A DNA stretch of 48,524 bases from a virus. The stretch spans positions 1 through 48,524 of IMG/VR virus record IMGVR_UViG_3300034196_000075. One strand, 5' to 3'. Under the pieces are notes generated by a model. The model had not been told where the DNA came from. It saw nothing but the letters and a program-made list of their open reading frames with translations, and made no database searches. The position numbers and the translations under genes are program-made. Shown piece by piece: positions 208 to 47,932 of the stretch (the first letter of the stretch is position 1; each line of letters starts with the position of its first letter).

Positions 208-284
208 CGGGGCGTAGCGCAGTCCGGTAGCGCACTAGCATGGGGTGCTAGGGGTCGAGTGTTCGAATCACTCCGTCCCGACCA
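208..284 (+). tRNA. tRNA-Pro, anticodon GGG
   Basis: This is a 77-nt cloverleaf. The acceptor CGGGGCG (208-214) pairs with CGTCCCG (274-280), with one G-T wobble. The anticodon stem CTAGC/GCTAG encloses the loop ATGGGGT, giving anticodon GGG, which reads CCC proline codons. The T arm contains GTTCGAATC, and the CCA end is encoded (282-284). The gene is the prophage integration site: everything from base 237 (the anticodon stem) to the 3' end is shared with attR, so the 3' part now present is the phage-borne copy that keeps the tRNA functional. Confidence 0.95.
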
Positions 285-285
285 T
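237..285. repeat. attL core, 49 bp
   Basis: It is identical to 42038-42086. It runs from the anticodon stem of tRNA-Pro through the CCA plus one T. The flanks diverge immediately outside (T versus C on the left, A versus T on the right), which defines the crossover identity block. Confidence 0.95.
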
Positions 286-11758: not shown

Positions 11759-12435
11759 TACAGCTTCCTTGAGTTCCAGGCCAGCAGCACGCGCGCGTGA
11801 ATGCGCAGCATGTCAAGTTCGGCGCCCCTTATGTCGTAAGGCGGGAAGGCGTCGTTGTCGGAAATCATCCGGATCATTTTCGGCAGCCGCTGCAAGCGCT
11901 TGATGTACAGAACTCCATCCAGCGAAAACAGGTAGACACCGTCTACCACAACCTCATTCACACCTTTATCGATGATGAGCGGGTCGCCACTGGTAAAGGT
12001 CTTTTCCATGCTTTCACCGAAGCCAGTCACCACAGCCAAGTTTTCCGCCCTGCTGTAGTTGACGCCCTGTTCCCGCAGGTACTCCTGGCGGACAGTGATG
12101 TTTCGGATCGTCTCGATATAGTCGCTTGGTACAACCTGCCCTGGTCCCATAGATCCCACCACGTCGTATTGAGGGATGTCGATATCGCCCTTCGCCTTGC
12201 CCGCGAAGTTCGCCAAAACAACATTTGATCCTTTGTCGCCGCCACGCCAAAGCCAATCGGTGGTCACGCCCAGAGCCTTGGCTATCTTGTCGATATTGTC
12301 CTGACGAGGGTTTTTTGAGTCGCCGGTAATGATCCGGTGAATGGTTGGCTGATTGACGCCAGAGCGCCGCCCCAGCTCGCCCTCCGACAAGCCCAGGCGC
12401 TCCATTTCCGCAGCAAGTCTTTCGCCAATCTTCAT
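11758..12435 (-). CDS. CI/C2-like phage repressor (HTH + S24 peptidase)
   Basis: A 225-aa protein starting MKIGERLAAEMERLG; a TTG 12 nt upstream would lie in an operator and is less likely. Residues about 5-65 form an HTH (SEGELGRRSGVNQPTIHRI). Residues about 95-220 form a LexA/S24 domain with GFGESMEKTF (probable Ser nucleophile) and YIKRLQRL (probable Lys). A possible autocleavage region is GSMGPGQVVP. RecA-stimulated self-cleavage would give SOS induction. It represses PR and PL through the CAATACGT...ATTG operators. Two membrane-protein genes follow on the same transcript. Confidence 0.93.
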   Translation of the reverse strand: MKIGERLAAEMERLGLSEGELGRRSGVNQPTIHRIITGDSKNPRQDNIDKIAKALGVTTDWLWRGGDKGSNVVLANFAGKAKGDIDIPQYDVVGSMGPGQVVPSDYIETIRNITVRQEYLREQGVNYSRAENLAVVTGFGESMEKTFTSGDPLIIDKGVNEVVVDGVYLFSLDGVLYIKRLQRLPKMIRMISDNDAFPPYDIRGAELDMLRIHARVLLAWNSRKL

Positions 12436-15004: not shown

Positions 15005-15634
15005 ATGAGACTGATCAGCGCACGGCAAGCATGGCACGATTGCTACTACACGCCCTGGGACAGCGTCATGCACCACGGGCTGGAGGGAGCAAAGCTCGGG
15101 AAGCGCGGCTACGTGCCGAACGAAACGCGCCCTGATCGCTGGGAGAATCTGGGCAGATGCGCCCATATGGCCGTTGCAGGCCGGGTGCAGAACGCCATTG
15201 CGAGCCTGCCGCTGGAGTACCAGGCCTTCGGGCACCACCTGTACGCCCCGGTGATCACCACCGAACAGTCGAATGCGTGGGACGATGCCGCCCACGGACT
15301 GCTGGCCGGTGGCGTTGATCTGGCGCTACGTGAGCGCGGCGAGAAACGGCGGTGCCTGGACTACAGCCGGGAATACTACGTCGCCCGGGGCGTCCTGGTG
15401 CGATACCGGCATATGGTGCAGGGTGGCATGGGAGCCAACCCCGACCCGATGGCAAACTCGTGGGTGTTCCGCGGCTGGTTGGCTGATCACCATGGCGTTA
15501 TCCTTGACCGGCGCAACTGGACACGCGACTGGGGCTGGCTGATTCAGCTGGTGTTTGAAATAGCTGGCACGATGGATAGGAAGTGCTTGGCTCCAGTTGG
15601 GAAATTACTTGGCGAACAAATGGAGGCGGCTTAG
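15005..15634 (+). CDS. hypothetical protein in the antiterminator-Q position
   Basis: A 209-aa protein, MRLISARQAWHDCYYTPWDS..., preceded by GAGGGGG. It is Trp/His/Arg-rich with no recognised catalytic motif or Cys cluster. In lambdoid phages the gene between rusA and the lysis genes usually encodes late antiterminator Q; here position alone suggests such a role. It overlaps the next gene's GTG by one base. Confidence 0.7.
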   Translation: MRLISARQAWHDCYYTPWDSVMHHGLEGAKLGKRGYVPNETRPDRWENLGRCAHMAVAGRVQNAIASLPLEYQAFGHHLYAPVITTEQSNAWDDAAHGLLAGGVDLALRERGEKRRCLDYSREYYVARGVLVRYRHMVQGGMGANPDPMANSWVFRGWLADHHGVILDRRNWTRDWGWLIQLVFEIAGTMDRKCLAPVGKLLGEQMEAA

Positions 15635-16563
15635 TGGGTATGGAGTTTGACATTGTCAAAAATGTTAGGGGTGAGTTTCTAAAACTCATAAGTGAAATAT
15701 CTAAGCAGCAGTCGCGCATAGATACTAAGTGGCAATTTGACTTGATGGAATGGGAGCAATCAATAAAACGATGGGGGGGCGACCTTGATGCTGAAACAGA
15801 CCCATTCGTCATCAGTACCAAAAGTTACGTCGATCTTAGAACTCAAAAAAATGAACGTTATAGCGATGGGCTATCCGTGTTTGTGGATAAGCGCGACATG
15901 CTCCTCAGCGTAAAAAACCGGCGATATCAGTGGTTGCTAGCCGAAGCGTACGAGTTCTTTGAGGATGCGATAGAAAAGTTGTATGCCGCGGCGGGATACC
16001 TTGATCGAGACTTTTGGCCCTTGTCTGATTTTGGACACGAAAGGCTGTCCACAATGGAAAATCTTGGATTCGACGACTTTCAAAAAAAGGCTGTCAAAAA
16101 GAGAGATACTCCCAAAAGTATATTGGCAGTTTTTAAAAATAGAATTCCTAGTCTAGAAAGTGCAGACCCAGAGCTGGTATATGGCGCGCCCGTTGGGTTT
16201 CTCGTTGTGCTTGTGGAAAAGCTGAGACATTTAATTGTGCATTCAAACGGCCGAACCGATAGGCTGGATGAGTTTTGCAGCAAGGTATTTCAAGATGCAG
16301 GGATTAGTTCAAAAGGCAAGGATGCAGATTTAGAACTTTATATCCGTAAACTTTTTGCAGAGACTCCGATTGGCGACTACCAAATTCATCTGCTAGAGCC
16401 AGAACTCGATAGCACCGAACTGGAGCTCCCGGAGGATACCTTTATTATAAGGCAAGGATTTCTGGACGATTTACTCTCGGTAATGATGTCTTATGTCGCA
16501 TTACTGGCAGATACTTTACTCGAGCATTTAGAGCGGTCTGCATACTCTAGATCAGGTGCTTGA
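15634..16563 (+). CDS. A/T-rich moron with HEPN-like RX4H motif
   Basis: A 310-aa protein starting at GTG 15634: GGAGG lies 7 nt upstream, whereas ATG 15640 is 13 nt away. It is mostly helical. RHLIVH at residues 198-203, in a VEKLRHLIVHSNGRTD context, fits the RX4-6H signature of HEPN RNases, where Arg and His form the active site in a dimer. The upstream helices (LLAEAYEFFEDAIEKLYAA) would supply the first HEPN helices. Codon use is visibly A/T-rich compared with both neighbours, indicating a separate origin. HEPN proteins are common in abortive infection, so a prophage-borne anti-phage role is plausible but unproven. Confidence 0.65.
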   Translation: MGMEFDIVKNVRGEFLKLISEISKQQSRIDTKWQFDLMEWEQSIKRWGGDLDAETDPFVISTKSYVDLRTQKNERYSDGLSVFVDKRDMLLSVKNRRYQWLLAEAYEFFEDAIEKLYAAAGYLDRDFWPLSDFGHERLSTMENLGFDDFQKKAVKKRDTPKSILAVFKNRIPSLESADPELVYGAPVGFLVVLVEKLRHLIVHSNGRTDRLDEFCSKVFQDAGISSKGKDADLELYIRKLFAETPIGDYQIHLLEPELDSTELELPEDTFIIRQGFLDDLLSVMMSYVALLADTLLEHLERSAYSRSGA

Positions 16564-16623
16564 CAGGTTTGTGCCAGTTCTGACATGATTTTTCCACGGT
16601 GTGAAGTCGCACCCGATACTTAG

Positions 16624-16647
16624 AAACCCGCCAAGTGCGGGTTTTTT
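16624..16647 (+). terminator. terminator after the HEPN-like gene
   Basis: AAACCCGC (16624-16631) pairs with GCGGGTTT (16637-16644), followed by more T. It separates the moron from the lysis genes and may be a target of late antitermination. Confidence 0.8.
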
Positions 16648-16668
16648 GTTGGCTGGAAATCATCCCTG

Positions 16669-16695
16669 AGCCCTGGCATTTGCCGGGGCTTTTTC
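16669..16695 (+). terminator. second terminator-like hairpin before the holin
   Basis: AGCCCTGGCA and TGCCGGGGCT pair with one mismatch-type G-T, followed by five T. It is tandem with the previous element, so two stops guard the lysis and late operon. Confidence 0.7.
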
Positions 16696-16711: not shown

Positions 16712-17014
16712 ATGGCAGCCCCAGGTAGGAGTTCGAACAACATGGCCAACCCGACACCGGAAGGGATCGTAGAGGTGGTGGGAGCGTCAATTGCCAACAA
16801 AGGCATGGCGGTCGGTGCCGTTACTGGCGCTGTTGGCTGGCTGTCCCAGGTCAATTGGATCGGTATTGCTGGCGTGGTTGTGGCAGTGGTGGGCTTGCTT
16901 GTCAGCACCTACTTCCAGATTCGCCGTGATCGCCGGGAGGCAGCCGAGAGCGCGGCACGCACGGCCGAGAGCGCAGCCCGCGTCAAAGCCTTGCAGGACA
17001 AGTGCGAGATATGA
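16712..17014 (+). CDS. holin-like protein with two possible starts
   Basis: A 100-aa protein with GGAGG upstream of the first ATG. A hydrophobic region spans about residues 32-69 (one or two spans, the stronger at 50-68), followed by a charged, Ala/Arg/Glu-rich C-terminus. A second in-frame Met (residue 11) follows the basic peptide AAPGRSSNN and has AGGAG about 12 nt upstream. Holins open or depolarise the inner membrane to time lysis. The endolysin start overlaps the stop by 4 nt. Confidence 0.75.
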   Translation: MAAPGRSSNNMANPTPEGIVEVVGASIANKGMAVGAVTGAVGWLSQVNWIGIAGVVVAVVGLLVSTYFQIRRDRREAAESAARTAESAARVKALQDKCEI

Positions 17015-17526
17015 ACGCCCAGTTACGGCAGCGCATCGCGGTCAGCATGCTGAGCCTGAGCGCCGCCGGCTTCGCCACCTGGCAGGCGAGCGAGGGTTTC
17101 ACCCCTGTCGCGGTCATCCCCACAAAGGGCGACGTGCCAACCATCGGCCACGGCTCCACCCGTTATGAAGACGGCTCGCCAGTCCGCATGGGCGACACGA
17201 TCACACCGGCCCGCGCCGAAGTCCTGGCCCGCAACCTCAACGGCCAGGCTGAACAGCAGTTCGCCGCGTCCATCCCGGGCGTGAAGCTGTACCAGGACGA
17301 ATTCGATATCTACATGGACTTCGTCGGCCAGTACGGCATTGGCACCTGGCGCAAGGGCTCGCCCCGCAAGAGCCTGCTGGCCGGCAACTACGTTCAGGCC
17401 TGCAATGACCTACTCAAGTATCGCTATGCCGCTGGCTTCGACTGCTCGACACCGGGCAACAAGCGCTGCGCTGGCGTATGGACTCGCCAACTGGAGCGTC
17501 ATGCCAAGTGCATGGCCGCCCAATGA
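17011..17526 (+). CDS. endolysin, GH24 lysozyme with signal-anchor-type N-terminus
   Basis: A 171-aa protein. Residues about 10-25 (IAVSMLSLSAAGFATW) form a weakly hydrophobic Gly/Ala-rich segment typical of SAR endolysins. Glu28 in ASEGFTP is the probable catalytic acid, and PTIGHGST carries the conserved Thr. The Asp expected nine residues after Glu is replaced, with an Asp nearby in TKGDVPTIG. It hydrolyses peptidoglycan in the periplasm. ATGA overlaps with both neighbours show a compact lysis operon. Confidence 0.9.
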   Translation: MNAQLRQRIAVSMLSLSAAGFATWQASEGFTPVAVIPTKGDVPTIGHGSTRYEDGSPVRMGDTITPARAEVLARNLNGQAEQQFAASIPGVKLYQDEFDIYMDFVGQYGIGTWRKGSPRKSLLAGNYVQACNDLLKYRYAAGFDCSTPGNKRCAGVWTRQLERHAKCMAAQ

Positions 17527-40135: not shown

Positions 40136-41761
40136 TTATTCTTTCTCTATTACCGTGAACCTGAATGGGAACCCGGTGTTTTTTGCTTGAAGTATTTCAC
40201 CTTCCACGAACACGTTTAGCCGGTCATCGGTGATTGATGTGTTTGTGATTTTGCGTGTCGTCTTGTCGGCGAACTGAACGGTGTTCCCGATCTTGAAGGC
40301 AGCAACATTTTCAGGCGTGTTGTGCAGGAAGAACCCCGGCCACCGCCTTGCAATGCCGTTTGCCCAGTTAGGGTCGGTAACATAGTAGGACGTGTCTTCT
40401 TGCATGCATGTGACCGTTCCCGCCGAGGCCGTCACCATTTCTTTCGGAAACGATGCAGCCCAGCCTATCGGGTACAGAGCAACGGTGACATTCCCCGCAG
40501 CATCCGCAGGCAGCAGCGATGCCGAGCAAAGCTGATCCTGAAAACTCTCTGCGCCAGCGATTGATGTGCGGGTTGCCTTGCCTTCAAACAACCAGCCGAT
40601 GTTGGCCAGGTACAGCGCAGCGAACGAAGCCAGGCACAGTGCGCCCAGAACACGAACTGCCTTGCTGCCGCGCAGAGCCGATCCGGCGAGCACCAGGAAC
40701 GAGAAGGTAACGATTATGTTCAGCCCCATGAAGTAGCGGTCTGGGAATGTTCCCGCGTAACCCCCAAGAACTTCTGTCAGGTTTTTGCGCATGTACACGG
40801 TGAAGAATGCATAAATCACGTATGCAATTGCACACATGGAAATGAGGCTTTTGACCTCTCTGGACTTTTCCTTTGTCAGCAAGACGGCGAACAACGCTAG
40901 TAGTACTAGCGACAAAGCCACAACGATTGTGTCGGTGAGGTGGTTGTAGAAAGGGAATACGAACGGATATATGAAAGACCGCGCAAGGCTGACCTCGATC
41001 AGGCTTTCAAATCTAAAGTTACCGATCACGCCTTTGGCTGGTGAGGCAATCATTCTAAAAAAGATGAGAGCGCCAATGACAAGGCAGCCAGCCGTTACAG
41101 CGCCATACTTCTTGATCCACTTCTTGATATCACGATCAATCAGCGTGAAAACAGAAAATGCCAGGGTCAGCACCAGGCACACCGGGTTCGTTGAGGCGCA
41201 GAGCAGCAGGGCGATATCTGTGATTGGGGTCGCTTTGGCGCTTCTGCTTTTTGCGAACATCAGCAGCGTAGTGATGAACACAAAGTAGAACCCAATGTTC
41301 GATATCTTTCCGAACACCTCGCCCGAAGAGTCCCCCAGCGGGATCATCAGCGTGGCGAGAAACACCACCCAACGGATTGCTGTCGGCAGAAACCCTTTCG
41401 TGACGTAGTAGCAAAGGGCGCTTACTGAGGCGTAGAAAAAGTAGGACCAGAAAGATAGTGCTTGTGGGTAGCAGGCCAGCTTGTCACCACAGAAAACATC
41501 CGACACCAGGGTCGCCAAGTAAACGAACAGCAGGTTTCCCCAGACAAAGTAGTCTGTCTTGGCATTGACTATGGTGTACCACCAGCCCTTGGTCATGGCC
41601 GTCCCGAGCCATACCCCATCCTCTGTGTAGGCGATGTTGTTTGTCAGCGGCTCAAGGTTCCTGAGCGTCAGGACCAGCCCTGCAATAACTAGCATTGCGA
41701 TAACGCCAAGGACTGATACCGCCCTGGTGCTGGAAATTAAGTCTCTGTAGCGGCTCTGCAT
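40136..41761 (-). CDS. multi-pass membrane GT-C-like protein, probable seroconversion gene
   Basis: A 541-aa protein with GGAG upstream of the ATG. About ten or more membrane spans are visible (for example VLGVIAMLVIAGLVLTL, FWSYFFYASVSALCYYV, FIYPFVFPFYNHL). An acidic first external loop (AYTEDGVWLGTAMTKGWW) resembles the ED motif of GT-C glycosyltransferases. A C-terminal soluble domain follows residue ~430. It is A/T-rich and points away from the late operon, typical of a lysogenic conversion moron that modifies O antigen. GtrA/GtrB partners are absent. Confidence 0.65.
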   Translation of the reverse strand: MQSRYRDLISSTRAVSVLGVIAMLVIAGLVLTLRNLEPLTNNIAYTEDGVWLGTAMTKGWWYTIVNAKTDYFVWGNLLFVYLATLVSDVFCGDKLACYPQALSFWSYFFYASVSALCYYVTKGFLPTAIRWVVFLATLMIPLGDSSGEVFGKISNIGFYFVFITTLLMFAKSRSAKATPITDIALLLCASTNPVCLVLTLAFSVFTLIDRDIKKWIKKYGAVTAGCLVIGALIFFRMIASPAKGVIGNFRFESLIEVSLARSFIYPFVFPFYNHLTDTIVVALSLVLLALFAVLLTKEKSREVKSLISMCAIAYVIYAFFTVYMRKNLTEVLGGYAGTFPDRYFMGLNIIVTFSFLVLAGSALRGSKAVRVLGALCLASFAALYLANIGWLFEGKATRTSIAGAESFQDQLCSASLLPADAAGNVTVALYPIGWAASFPKEMVTASAGTVTCMQEDTSYYVTDPNWANGIARRWPGFFLHNTPENVAAFKIGNTVQFADKTTRKITNTSITDDRLNVFVEGEILQAKNTGFPFRFTVIEKE

Positions 41762-42979: not shown

Positions 42980-45900
42980 TTAATGGGTTTGCTGATCAAT
43001 CCCGGCCTGTAACGCCTGGCTATCACTGTGCCCGCCGACCCTCAGCGGTCCAAGATTGAAGGCTTGATCCTTACGTATGGCGTCGTCCTGTTTCTGGGTC
43101 AATTCGTCCTTGGCGCCCAGCACCAGGTTAACCGGTGACTTCGACAGGTTCAGCCCGACATCCGCTCGGTAATCGCTGCCGGCCAACGTCGTTGCCGTGA
43201 CCTTGGAACCACCCAGGTCGACCTTGCCCTGGTCCGCGCTGATCCGGGCGCCAGTCAGGTGGGTTTCGCCACTCACCTGCAGGTTGACGCCTTGCGTGCG
43301 GATGCCCGACGCTTGAGTGACGCTGTCTTTCACCACATGGCTGACGTCCAGGTTCAACGTCGGGGTGTAGGACGTGTTGCCGCTCTTGTCGCCGAACAGC
43401 ACGTTTTCGGTGGTATTGGCCATCGAACTGCCGGTGGTGTTTTTGCCGTTGACGGCGTAGCTGTCAGTAGTTTTTGGCCAGGCTTTTTCCTTGAGGTCGG
43501 ACAGGCGAGTGCCCACGGCATCCTTCTTGTCCGCCAGGTAAGCCTTGGCTTTGTCCACGCTCGTACCGAAGGCGCCGCGGGGCTCGGGGTTCACGTCGTA
43601 GCTACCGCTGCGGGTGAGTTTTTCGCCCAGGCGTTCCTTGGCGTTGCCAACGCTGTTGACCACGCTGTCCTTGGCCGAGGCCAGGTGCTCGGTGCCCTTG
43701 TCCACGGCGTTCTCGAGCTTTTCGCGGTGCTTGTCAAACGCGCCCTCGGCCTTGGCTTGCACCTTGTCCTTGAGCGGGCCGCTGGCCTTGGCCAGTTTGT
43801 TGACCACGCCGGGCTGGTTTTTCTCGACATCAAGCTTGGCGTCGACGTTGACTTGGGTGCTGCTGACTTGATCTTTGCGGCTCTCGACGACGAGGTCGCC
43901 GCCGACATTGCCACTGACCTGATCGGCTTCAATTCGCGCGCCGGCCAGATGGGTGTCACCGGCACTGTTGATCACCACCTTATTCGCCTTGATCAGGCTG
44001 TCGTGCTGGGTGGTGCCTTGCAGGTGATCCACGTCGACCTTGGCCCGCGCATTGATGCCGTGCTGGGTCTTGGGGGTGTCATGTTCACCGGCGTCGGCCA
44101 GGGTGGTTTTGCCGCCGCTGCCGCCTGCGCCCAGGGTCACGCCCCAGCTGTTATGCGCCTGGGTCGATTGCGCCGACTCTTGCAGGATGCCGCCGTTTTG
44201 CGCATCCAGATTGACGCTGTCAGCCACCACCTGAGTGCCTTGCAGGTGGATCGCATCCGCCGCGTTGGCGCCGCTGGTGAGGCTCACCTTGCCGTTGCTG
44301 TGCAACTGCCCGCCGCTAACGCCTTGGTCGTTTTCGGCGACTTTGCCGATGTTGAAGTTGGCGCTCAGGCTGCCGGTGGTGCCGCTGCTTTCAGCGCTGC
44401 TGGTCTTGCCGGCACCGACCGTCAGGCCGCCGCCCAAGTTGCTGCCGCTGCTCACGTGCGTAGCGGTGGCTGCTTGCAGATTCAGCTTGCCGCCAGCGTT
44501 GAGGCTGATGTCACCGGTCTTCGCGGTGCTGCTGCCGACCTGAGTGCCCTGCAGAGTCATGTCGCCACCGCTGCTGAGCTGGATCGGGCCGTTGCCCTGC
44601 AGCGTCGCGACACGCGCCTGGCTGTCCTGGGTGTTCAGGCGCTTGTCGTCCAGTTGCACACCGGCACCGAGGCTGGCGTTCGTACCGTTGCTGCCCGGGG
44701 CCGTGCCCACGGTCATAGAACCGCTGCCGCGCAGGCTGTTACTGGTGTTGCTCTGGGTATCGTTGGCCTGGTTCAGCACCAATTCGCCACCGGCTTTGAG
44801 GTTGACGCCCGCCTGGCCGCCGTTGAACTGGCTGCCTTCATAACGCGCGTCGCCTTGGGTCTCGATGTTCACACCCTGGGCCCCGGCGTAGCTGCCGACT
44901 ACCGCCGTGCTGCTGGATTCGCGCACATCGCTGCTGCCGCCTGCGCCATTGCCGCGCACGTTCAAGTCTTCACCGGTGGTGGTGTAGACGCGCACGCCCA
45001 CTTTGGCGTCAACGCCTTGCTCGCTGCTGGTGTGGGTGTTGGCGGCCGCCGTGGCGAGGTGCTCGCCGGCATTGATCTTCAGCCCGCCCTCACTGGCGCG
45101 GTACTGGGTGCCTTCATCTTTCACGGTGTTGGCGACATTGACCTGCACCGTGCTACCGCTGAACTGGCTGACCACGGCGGTACTGTCCTGCTGTGTGCGG
45201 GTCTTGTTGGTATGGCCGACTTCCACATCGAGCCCGACATTCGGTTGCTCGAAGGCATCCAGCAGGCCGGGCTGATGGAATTTGGCCTGGGCCACGCCGT
45301 CGACGGCTTTTTCGATCGGCCGGGTGATGCCTTTGTATTCAACATTGGCGCCGACGTCGGCGGTCCAACCGTTCTCTTTGTGGGTGCCGGTCTCGGTGTT
45401 ATGCGCCGCCTGGTTATCGACCTGCGCCGCGTTGACCTGCAACTCAGAACCGGCCTTCACCTGCGCGCCCTGGCTGGTCAGGGTGTTGCCGGCGTTGATC
45501 GTCAGCGTGCCGGCCGACGCCACGCTGCTGGTTTGCGCGGTGGTTTTGTGGCTGGTGTCATTGCTGCTCTGGTGGCTGAACTGCGCACCATTGCCGGCTC
45601 GGTCCAGGCCGCCGGTGTAATACACGCCGCCAGCGGTGGTGGTGGTGTCGGTTTGGCTACGGGTGCTGTCATCGGTCGCCAACAGCTCGACGTTTTTGCC
45701 GCTCACGGTCGCATCGCCCTGGGTCGCCTTTAGCTCGGAACCCTTGATGCTCACGTCGCCACCGGCCGTGACGGCCAGGCTGCCGCCGCTGAGGCTGGAA
45801 GCTTGCTGCTGGGTGGTGTCGGTCTTGCTGGCGTGCTGCTGATCTGCATAGTTCACACCCGCGCGGTACTGACGCGTGCCGTCGGCGGTTTCCTTGGCGT

Positions 45901-47932
45901 AGCCATCGAAACCCCGCGTGTGAGTGCTGGTAGTGGTGTGAGAGGTGTTTTGAGCCGACGCGACTTTGATGTCACCCTTGGCATTCGCTTGCAGTTCGCC
46001 TGCCGCAGAGACCTTGGAGCCGCTGACGCTGATGTCCTTGGCGCTTTGCAGTTTGAGGTTGCTGTCCGAGCGCAGGTTGCTGGCGACGACGGTGCTGTCC
46101 TTGAGGTTCTTGCGGCTTTCATCCTTGGAGATACCAAAGAACTTGCTGTCGTTGCTGTAGCTATTGTCGTGGGAGGTGTCTTGCACGCCGTCGATCACCA
46201 GCGAGCCTTTGTCGCTGATGACGCTGGCCTGTTGGCCACCACGCGCCTGGCTGCCGCTGATGCGCACGTCGTCCGCCTTGACGATCAGCTTGCCATCGGC
46301 ATTGACCTTGCTGCCGGTGTTCAGGGTCTTGCCCTTATCGCCATCGCCGTTCTTGCCGAAGAAACTGCCGCCAGTCAGGTCGCCGGAGTAAGCGTTGTCG
46401 CTGCTGCTCTGGGTACGGCTGGCGCTGGTGATGTCGACTTGCCGAGCGGCCAATTGAATATCGCCCGCAGATTTCAGTTCGGCGCCTTGCAGTTGCAGTT
46501 TTTGCTGGCTGGTCAGTTCCAGGGCTTTGCCGGCCTTGAGGCTGCTGGTGACGCTGCGCTGTTCGCTGCTGGACTTGTCCCAGTTGGCTTTCCACAGGTG
46601 CTTGCGGTGGTTGCCCTGGTCGCGGGTTTCGTGGGTCTCGGTGGCGGCGCTCAGTTGCAGGTCGGCGCCGCTGTTGACGCGCAATGCGTCGCCTGCTTCG
46701 ACCTTGCTGGCCTTGATCTCGGTGTTGGCGCCGGACGACAGCGTGGCATTTTGTTGTGCGACGACGTTGTTGGCGTGCTGACGCGAGTCCTTGTCGGTGG
46801 TGGTGCGGTCATAGGTTTCGTAGGTGAACAGGAAGTTGCTGTTGTTCCACTGCTCACGTTTTTCCTGAAGTTTTTGGCTTTCCAGGCTGCTGAGGGTGAG
46901 GTTGCGGCCGGCGTCGAGCTTGACGTTGCGTCCGCCGACGTCGGTGGCGGCGAGGCTCAAGTCTTTGGCACTGTGCAAGTCGACATCGCCCTGGCGGCTC
47001 TGCACACCGGCGCGGGTGGCGTCGAGGCTGTTGGCGTGGACCTGGCCGCTGATATCGAGGTCGCCGGCCGAGCTGACCTTCACCCCATCACGGCCCTCGA
47101 CTTGCACCGCGCCCACGCGCACCCCGGCACCTTCGGCGGTGCTGATGATATTGATACGGCCGGCCTGCATTGCCCCGAACAGGCGGGCATCGATACGCTG
47201 GTCCTGGGTTTTGCTCGCCGGGTCGACCTGGCGCACCTGGGCGCTGGCGTAGTCGATCTGATTGCGGCCGACCGTGAGGTTCAATTGGTCACGCGCACTG
47301 AGGCGCCCCTCGCTGTCGATACGCGGCGCGATCAGGTTGATCGAACCCGCGCCGTTTTGCAGGCCCTGGCCCTGCACCGTCAGGTGGCCGCTTGCATCGC
47401 GAGTATTCAAGCCTTGCAGCTTGCCGTCGTTGAGCTCAGGGCGGCCCACTACGAGGTTGGCATTTGGGGTGTTGATGAAACTGCCGCCGTTGACGGAAAT
47501 GCCATTGGGGTTGGCCAGCACATAATCGGCAGCCCGGCCAAAAACCTCCTGAGCGCCGTTGATGGCTGAGGCGTTGCGGCTCACCACTTCGTTGAGGATC
47601 ACGCTCGCCGCCTGGCCCTGGAACTGCGGGTTGGCCGCCAGCTGCCCGGCGAGTTGCGATTGACCAGCCTGCAAGGCGTTGTTCAACACCACGCCCTGGC
47701 GGTCGACGTTGTAGTCCAGAAACTGGTTATGGGACAGGCCGCCGGCATTCGGCGCGACGATGTTGACGATGGGCACGCCGCCCTGGTTTTGCAGCTGCGG
47801 CGTACCGCCAGGCCCTTCGACGACGGTTAAGCCACCGGCCAGGACCAGCTGCGGCAGCAGGAACAGGCTGGCGATGGCCCAGCGCAGTTTGCCCTGGGGT
47901 GAAAGGTGAAATGTATGGGTGTCAGTCGGCAT
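42980..47932 (-). CDS. two-partner secretion exoprotein (TpsA, haemagglutinin-like)
   Basis: A 1650-aa protein: a signal region (about 14-33, KLRWAIASLFLLPQLVLAGG) and a TPS domain with GGLSHNQFLDYNV, then ANPNGISVNGG (NPNG about 141-144). A long beta-helix of degenerate repeats follows (SAGDL, GGDVSIKGSELKA, HLTGARI types). It is exported by Sec and then across the outer membrane by TpsB; a surface adhesin role is typical. No CdiA-type VENN motif, toxin domain or cdiI follows; the C-terminus ends in a charged tail. The gene lies downstream of TpsB on the same strand. Confidence 0.88.
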   Translation of the reverse strand: MPTDTHTFHLSPQGKLRWAIASLFLLPQLVLAGGLTVVEGPGGTPQLQNQGGVPIVNIVAPNAGGLSHNQFLDYNVDRQGVVLNNALQAGQSQLAGQLAANPQFQGQAASVILNEVVSRNASAINGAQEVFGRAADYVLANPNGISVNGGSFINTPNANLVVGRPELNDGKLQGLNTRDASGHLTVQGQGLQNGAGSINLIAPRIDSEGRLSARDQLNLTVGRNQIDYASAQVRQVDPASKTQDQRIDARLFGAMQAGRINIISTAEGAGVRVGAVQVEGRDGVKVSSAGDLDISGQVHANSLDATRAGVQSRQGDVDLHSAKDLSLAATDVGGRNVKLDAGRNLTLSSLESQKLQEKREQWNNSNFLFTYETYDRTTTDKDSRQHANNVVAQQNATLSSGANTEIKASKVEAGDALRVNSGADLQLSAATETHETRDQGNHRKHLWKANWDKSSSEQRSVTSSLKAGKALELTSQQKLQLQGAELKSAGDIQLAARQVDITSASRTQSSSDNAYSGDLTGGSFFGKNGDGDKGKTLNTGSKVNADGKLIVKADDVRISGSQARGGQQASVISDKGSLVIDGVQDTSHDNSYSNDSKFFGISKDESRKNLKDSTVVASNLRSDSNLKLQSAKDISVSGSKVSAAGELQANAKGDIKVASAQNTSHTTTSTHTRGFDGYAKETADGTRQYRAGVNYADQQHASKTDTTQQQASSLSGGSLAVTAGGDVSIKGSELKATQGDATVSGKNVELLATDDSTRSQTDTTTTAGGVYYTGGLDRAGNGAQFSHQSSNDTSHKTTAQTSSVASAGTLTINAGNTLTSQGAQVKAGSELQVNAAQVDNQAAHNTETGTHKENGWTADVGANVEYKGITRPIEKAVDGVAQAKFHQPGLLDAFEQPNVGLDVEVGHTNKTRTQQDSTAVVSQFSGSTVQVNVANTVKDEGTQYRASEGGLKINAGEHLATAAANTHTSSEQGVDAKVGVRVYTTTGEDLNVRGNGAGGSSDVRESSSTAVVGSYAGAQGVNIETQGDARYEGSQFNGGQAGVNLKAGGELVLNQANDTQSNTSNSLRGSGSMTVGTAPGSNGTNASLGAGVQLDDKRLNTQDSQARVATLQGNGPIQLSSGGDMTLQGTQVGSSTAKTGDISLNAGGKLNLQAATATHVSSGSNLGGGLTVGAGKTSSAESSGTTGSLSANFNIGKVAENDQGVSGGQLHSNGKVSLTSGANAADAIHLQGTQVVADSVNLDAQNGGILQESAQSTQAHNSWGVTLGAGGSGGKTTLADAGEHDTPKTQHGINARAKVDVDHLQGTTQHDSLIKANKVVINSAGDTHLAGARIEADQVSGNVGGDLVVESRKDQVSSTQVNVDAKLDVEKNQPGVVNKLAKASGPLKDKVQAKAEGAFDKHREKLENAVDKGTEHLASAKDSVVNSVGNAKERLGEKLTRSGSYDVNPEPRGAFGTSVDKAKAYLADKKDAVGTRLSDLKEKAWPKTTDSYAVNGKNTTGSSMANTTENVLFGDKSGNTSYTPTLNLDVSHVVKDSVTQASGIRTQGVNLQVSGETHLTGARISADQGKVDLGGSKVTATTLAGSDYRADVGLNLSKSPVNLVLGAKDELTQKQDDAIRKDQAFNLGPLRVGGHSDSQALQAGIDQQTH

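Follow-up and report, generated by a model that had tools for sequence, protein, structure and literature searches.

What is the role of the A/T-rich gene that lies between the Q position and the lysis genes of a Pseudomonas prophage and encodes the string RHLIVH? The initial annotation had taken this string as the RX4H signature of a HEPN RNase and had read the gene as a single-gene defence moron. The sequence comparisons and structural model presented here support this view in part. The best reading available is that the gene probably encodes a HEPN RNase which, as a single-gene system, defends against phages by abortive infection; its family appears undescribed and would act on a known principle.

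The prophage and the Q-to-holin interval

The window, meaning the whole stretch of DNA analysed (48,524 bp, IMG/VR record IMGVR_UViG_3300034196_000075), contains one complete Pseudomonas prophage of about 41.85 kb in tRNA-Pro. Its ends are marked by a repeat pair, and its head and tail genes match those of Pseudomonas phage UFJF_PfDIW6 (92% for the terminase large subunit and 99% for the capsid). The features that define the prophage are the following:

237–285, plus strand: attL, 49-bp direct repeat overlapping tRNA-Pro (GGG)
353–1549: integrase-like ORF, assigned by inspection
11761–12435, minus strand: CI-type repressor homologue, 96% identity to CI of phage UFJF_PfDIW6
42038–42086, plus strand: attR, second copy of the 49-bp repeat

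At the right prophage end, a 541-aa ORF with a hydrophobic N-terminus (40136–41761, minus strand) adjoins the tail spike gene; we take it to resemble serotype-converting glycosyltransferases. Beyond attR lies a 1650-aa ORF (42980–47932, minus strand), the start of which presumably resembles that of a secreted host protein of the filamentous haemagglutinin type.

The gene under study and its neighbours are arranged as follows:

15005–15634, plus strand: Q-slot gene, 209 aa, PHROG 3373 (no PHROG function); 88% identical relative in L037, 73–76% in others
15622–15636, plus strand: ribosome-binding-like GGAGG (15622–15626), inside the Q-slot gene, and TAGTG overlap
15634–16563, stop included, plus strand: HEPN-like gene, 309 aa, PHROG 35492 family; GTG start at 15634, TGA stop at 16563
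16560–16589, plus strand: putative late promoter, TTGACA-N18-CATGAT, with TGn before the -10 box
16622–16646, plus strand: terminator hairpin 1 of the late promoter unit, -13.4 kcal/mol
16668–16691, plus strand: terminator hairpin 2 of the late promoter unit; the surrounding 37-base stretch folds at -19.5 kcal/mol
16712–17014, plus strand: holin (PHROG 4237)
17002–17526, plus strand: endolysin (PHROG 7)

The reading frame carrying RHLIVH behind a GTG start was confirmed, with a length of 309 residues plus the stop codon where 310 had been counted. Its GC content is 0.44 as compared with 0.59 for the whole window, most of the flanking 500-bp windows ranging from 0.57 to 0.65; the A/T-rich character described earlier amid GC-rich phage genes is thus borne out, and the lysis genes expected downstream were identified by PHROG as holin and endolysin. 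The TAG stop of the Q-slot gene (15632–15634) overlaps the GTG start (15634–15636), which gives the TAGTG sequence, and a sigma-70-like promoter was not detected in the 300 bp preceding the HEPN-like gene. At the other end, the TGA stop codon lies within the -35 box of the late promoter. The two terminators that had been noted behind the gene do exist as hairpins, but they belong to the late unit, since both sit between the late promoter and the holin and are retained in relatives devoid of the HEPN-like gene.

Comparison of the locus across related prophages, as had been proposed, revealed a variable cargo slot. The interval between the Q-slot gene and the holin varies from 151 to 1260 bp in related phages and is occupied by unrelated cargo, for the most part of no assigned function, or by none; the HEPN-like gene was absent from all related intervals examined. 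The term moron therefore fits the foreign composition of the gene, its absence from close relatives and the variability of its slot, but not in the strict sense of a gene with its own promoter and terminator. Twelve relatives (L037–L039, L041–L044, L050, L054, L057, L061 and L062) carry a promoter-like TTGAC 151–161 bp before the holin. As in the window, the TGA of this box closes the frame of the preceding gene in ten of them, the exceptions being L044 and L061, and the overlap is missing from relatives whose promoter sequence differs (L052, L053, L067, L077 and L090); these counts describe chosen examples and not a survey. A more daring view, which we hold to be rather doubtful, is that the interval from Q to the late promoter acts as a docking site for one gene, where the TGA of the -35 box serves as the stop codon of either the Q-slot gene or the cargo gene. 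The HEPN RNase would here be translationally coupled to the Q-slot gene, so that it would also be made early in lytic growth and act against co-infecting phages rather than only guard the lysogen.

Expression and distribution of the family

The overlap of the GTG and TAG codons together with the lack of a visible promoter implies that expression of the HEPN-like gene may follow the early lytic operon. Judged from this arrangement, the lysogen may keep the gene silent, and such silence would fit poorly with lysogen protection. An alternative is that the HEPN RNase serves the lytic programme of the phage itself, being expressed together with the Q-slot gene as part of the early operon and degrading host or competitor RNA or excluding co-infecting phages. 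The ribosome-binding-like site inside the Q-slot gene speaks in its favour as do the TAGTG overlap and the missing promoter, and the location of the gene upstream of the late promoter, which leaves it outside the late transcript, is also compatible with it. Nevertheless we regard this alternative as unlikely: the HEPN-like gene is missing from related phages that share its flanking genes, which indicates that it is dispensable; relatives of the gene stand alone on the opposite strand in phage-plasmids, and one relative is found in a chromosomal defence island.

These relatives were obtained by tblastn on phage and plasmid records followed by alignment-based scans of viral contigs and genomes; single-protein searches of viral and genome contigs gave no relative. 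By tblastn, 58 plasmid records and two phage records were found to carry a family member. The plasmid records that were opened correspond to SSU5-like phage-plasmids of about 110 kb (Klebsiella, Escherichia and Citrobacter) and to one ICE-like element of Pseudomonas veronii, and the remaining ones have the same size and hosts as the opened SSU5-like records. Further members came from the alignment-based scans, on viral contigs as well as in genomes of Undibacterium, Collimonas, Pseudomonas and Granulosicoccus, in a Treponema MAG and in a Nitrospira MAG. The Nitrospira copy (L031:2281-3184) is on a short contig and is broken into two frames, owing to either a frameshift or a sequencing error. 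The family is rare and patchy, with members in 3 of 400 Pseudomonas genomes and in 2 of 246 genomes of another family. All 18 aligned members matched PHROG 35492 (best E value 3.1e-211; 2.3e-20 for the window protein), an entry for which no function is given and to which the HEPN reading is added by the present analysis. No model for the family was found in Pfam, NCBIfam or PADLOC. PADLOC-DB 2.0.0 yielded no system match, and its two weak single-member matches were taken as chance, as were matches to talin and to the halogenase CmlS and the PAS and pAgo matches of single members.

The contexts of the family gene are diverse. It adjoins a phage integrase in L028, lies between a P2-like tail completion gene and baseplate genes in L018 and next to a tail gene in L033, and precedes the holin and endolysin of an unrelated phage in L026. 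The chromosomal copy of Pseudomonas pisciculturae (L029) resides in a defence island together with a PD-T7-1 homologue (646 bits), a Cap4-nuclease/nSTAND protein and an LmuB-like protein. In SSU5-like phage-plasmids, where the gene is by itself on the strand opposite to its neighbours, comparison of L123, L124, L126 and L127 with L010 and L001 showed that the site between grxA and tRNA-Ser holds variable cargo: the family gene, AbiGi and its partner, a DUF4263/SduA-like nuclease, a 438-aa gene of no assigned function, or none. The adjacent tRNA genes had suggested tRNA as the target; this idea was dropped because these tRNAs also occur where other cargo, or none, takes the place of the gene. 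Closely related pairs of contexts excepted, no neighbour was conserved across contexts, and the family gene thus appears to act alone. The earlier proposal of a single-gene prophage defence finds some support in this association of the relatives with mobile elements and with defence genes, from which a defence activity of the family itself may be surmised.

Conservation, predicted fold and HEPN membership

Since 0.30 RX4H strings are expected per shuffled protein, RHLIVH at residues 198 to 203, the sole RX4H of the window protein, is not significant as a string alone. Its weight comes from conservation. Among 25 representatives of less than 90% mutual identity, which are 18–31% identical to the window protein, residues R198, H199, V202, H203, G206 and E107 are invariant (25/25), so that the conservation of the Arg and His in homologues, on which the HEPN assignment had been made to depend, was verified. 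Close family pairs are under purifying selection, with dN/dS values of 0.22/1.97, 0.13/1.45, 0.12/0.63 and 0.30/1.09 for the four pairs with resolvable dS. Three parts of the protein can be distinguished:

15634–15879, plus strand: N-terminal module, residues 1–82, with a long helix (6–47) and a beta hairpin (57–82)
15880–16002, plus strand: conserved acidic helix, residues 83–123, with YQWLLAEAYEFFEDAIEKLYA; equivalent of helix 2 in the numbering assigned here
16225–16242, plus strand: R198-H-L-I-V-H203, the RX4H motif, at the end of helix 187–204

The acidic helix, with E107 invariant and E104 and E110 nearly so, and the motif region have mean pairwise identities of 48% and 46%, respectively, as compared with 18% for residues 1–82. 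This fast-evolving N-terminal module is a candidate sensor or regulatory part.

An AlphaFold2 model computed from 18 sequences (pLDDT 85, pTM 0.82) predicts a helical protein composed of helix 6–47, hairpin 57–82, helix 83–123, an insert (124–186), helix 187–204 ending in the motif and helix 276–307. In the published description of HEPN RNases, the RX4-6H motif closes a helix, the helix before it bears acidic residues, and an insert separates the two; the residue after the Arg is polar, mostly N, D or H, and helix 2 carries a conserved acidic residue, typically within Ex3[KR] (PMC3710099). The family resembles the superfamily in its invariant R198 and H203, in H199 behind the Arg, in the location of the motif at a helix end, and in the upstream acidic helix and the insert. 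It differs from it by its own signature, YQWLL-EAYE-FED, and its own N-terminal module, and Ex3[KR] is not conserved in helix 83–123 although E104, E107 and E110 are. The predicted layout hence fits the published description except for Ex3[KR].

Direct comparisons gave a different picture. Foldseek searches of the PDB with the whole protein and with residues 84–309 returned no solved HEPN structure among the matches listed, and none with an E value of 0.001 or below; the four-helix bundle, which had been named as the hallmark to look for, was therefore not recovered by this search. Pfam gave nothing for the window protein, and the families listed for other members included no HEPN model other than DUF3644, in one member and with an E value of 2.9. 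In hhalign comparisons with Pseudomonas members of PF18739, PF18735 and PF18737, at most the motif was aligned, with no significance; these comparisons carry no weight, as the reversed-alignment control outscored the true alignment in two of the three families. Because HEPN families are divergent and poorly conserved outside the motif (PMC3710099), missing profile similarity is weak evidence against membership. The HEPN-like label given earlier thus keeps its motif, its conserved Arg and His and its predicted helical context, but not a fold or profile match to a solved HEPN or to the three Pfam families. HEPN membership is likely and not proven: the layout fits, but Foldseek and hhalign gave no significant match.

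The missing match and the strong conservation of the aromatic residues W100, Y117 and W128 would also be explained by a helical family outside HEPN, in which the conserved RHxIVH is a structural or ligand-binding motif and the protein has an unrelated role. Such a family is, in our estimation, quite improbable, given that the motif, its spacing, the residue after the Arg, the helix-end position, the acidic helix and the insert all agree with the HEPN description, and that conservation beyond the motif is weak in HEPN families anyway.

Proposed mechanism and nearest known systems

For an abortive-infection HEPN RNase, the data would be accommodated by the following scheme. The product, of about 35 kDa, would be a self-contained and normally inactive HEPN-type endoribonuclease carried as exchangeable cargo of temperate phages. 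A product of an incoming phage or plasmid would be sensed by the N-terminal module (residues 1–82), or would gate it. Once triggered, the C-terminal domain (residues 83–309), which we infer to be an RNase and probably dimeric, would use R198 and H203, assisted by H199 and the acidic helix E104–D111, to cut RNA without metal. Translation would then stop and the infected cell would no longer support the invader, an outcome of the abortive infection or superinfection exclusion type. Toxin-antitoxin modules often contain HEPN toxins (PMC3710099) and family members occur on plasmid-like elements, but a role as the toxin in an element-stabilising toxin-antitoxin pair, be it HEPN-MNT-like or with an RNA antitoxin, is very improbable here, as no neighbour gene is common to the contexts and hence no MNT or other antitoxin partner gene is evident.

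Among experimentally studied systems, the closest analogues as regards size, layout and carrier are Tha-1 and Tha-2 of Staphylococcus aureus prophages, non-specific RNases that produce an Abi-like response (PMC11087260). Like the product of the window gene, Tha is one protein of about 300 residues encoded by a temperate phage, with a C-terminal HEPN RX4H (R265NSIMH270) and an N-terminal part of no known family; the two differ in that no sequence or profile similarity links them. Whereas Tha sits in the cI operon with the antisense inhibitor gene ith, the HEPN-like gene lies directly behind the Q-slot gene, with no evident inhibitor gene. AbiG, composed of AbiGi and an adjacent 403-aa gene, uses the same cargo site of SSU5-like phage-plasmids, but consists of two genes and belongs to an unrelated protein family.

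If the abortive-infection reading is true, PHROG 35492 would become a predicted single-gene HEPN defence family common to prophages of Pseudomonas and of other proteobacteria and to SSU5-like phage-plasmids from E. coli and Klebsiella. It would offer clear catalytic residues and a diverging N-terminus as a possible sensor, and would point to two cargo sites in which to seek defence genes, from Q to the late promoter in phages and from grxA to the tRNA in phage-plasmids. Literature searches under open licence, by accessions and by phage-plasmid plus HEPN, gave nothing, and no experiment was found on the window gene or on any single family member. At the level of a whole element, K. pneumoniae cured of the SSU5-like phage-plasmid Kp1604 p2 was 1–2 logs more sensitive to three phages, and the authors suspected a restriction-modification system on p2 (PMC8969562). 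This plasmid is the record behind L007 and carries a family member, which is one among many candidates including the restriction-modification system.

Exchangeable cargo sites of temperate phages are likewise known from the defence hotspots of P2-like phages and P4-like satellites (PMC9122126); the window differs from them in phage type and in the position of its site before the late promoter. Two cargo genes occupy the window's site in related phages, L044:5654-6571 (305 aa) and L046:5682-6614 (310 aa). Neither has a Pfam match, PADLOC gave at most a weak one (L046, E value 0.003), and both genes are candidates for further defence or exclusion genes.
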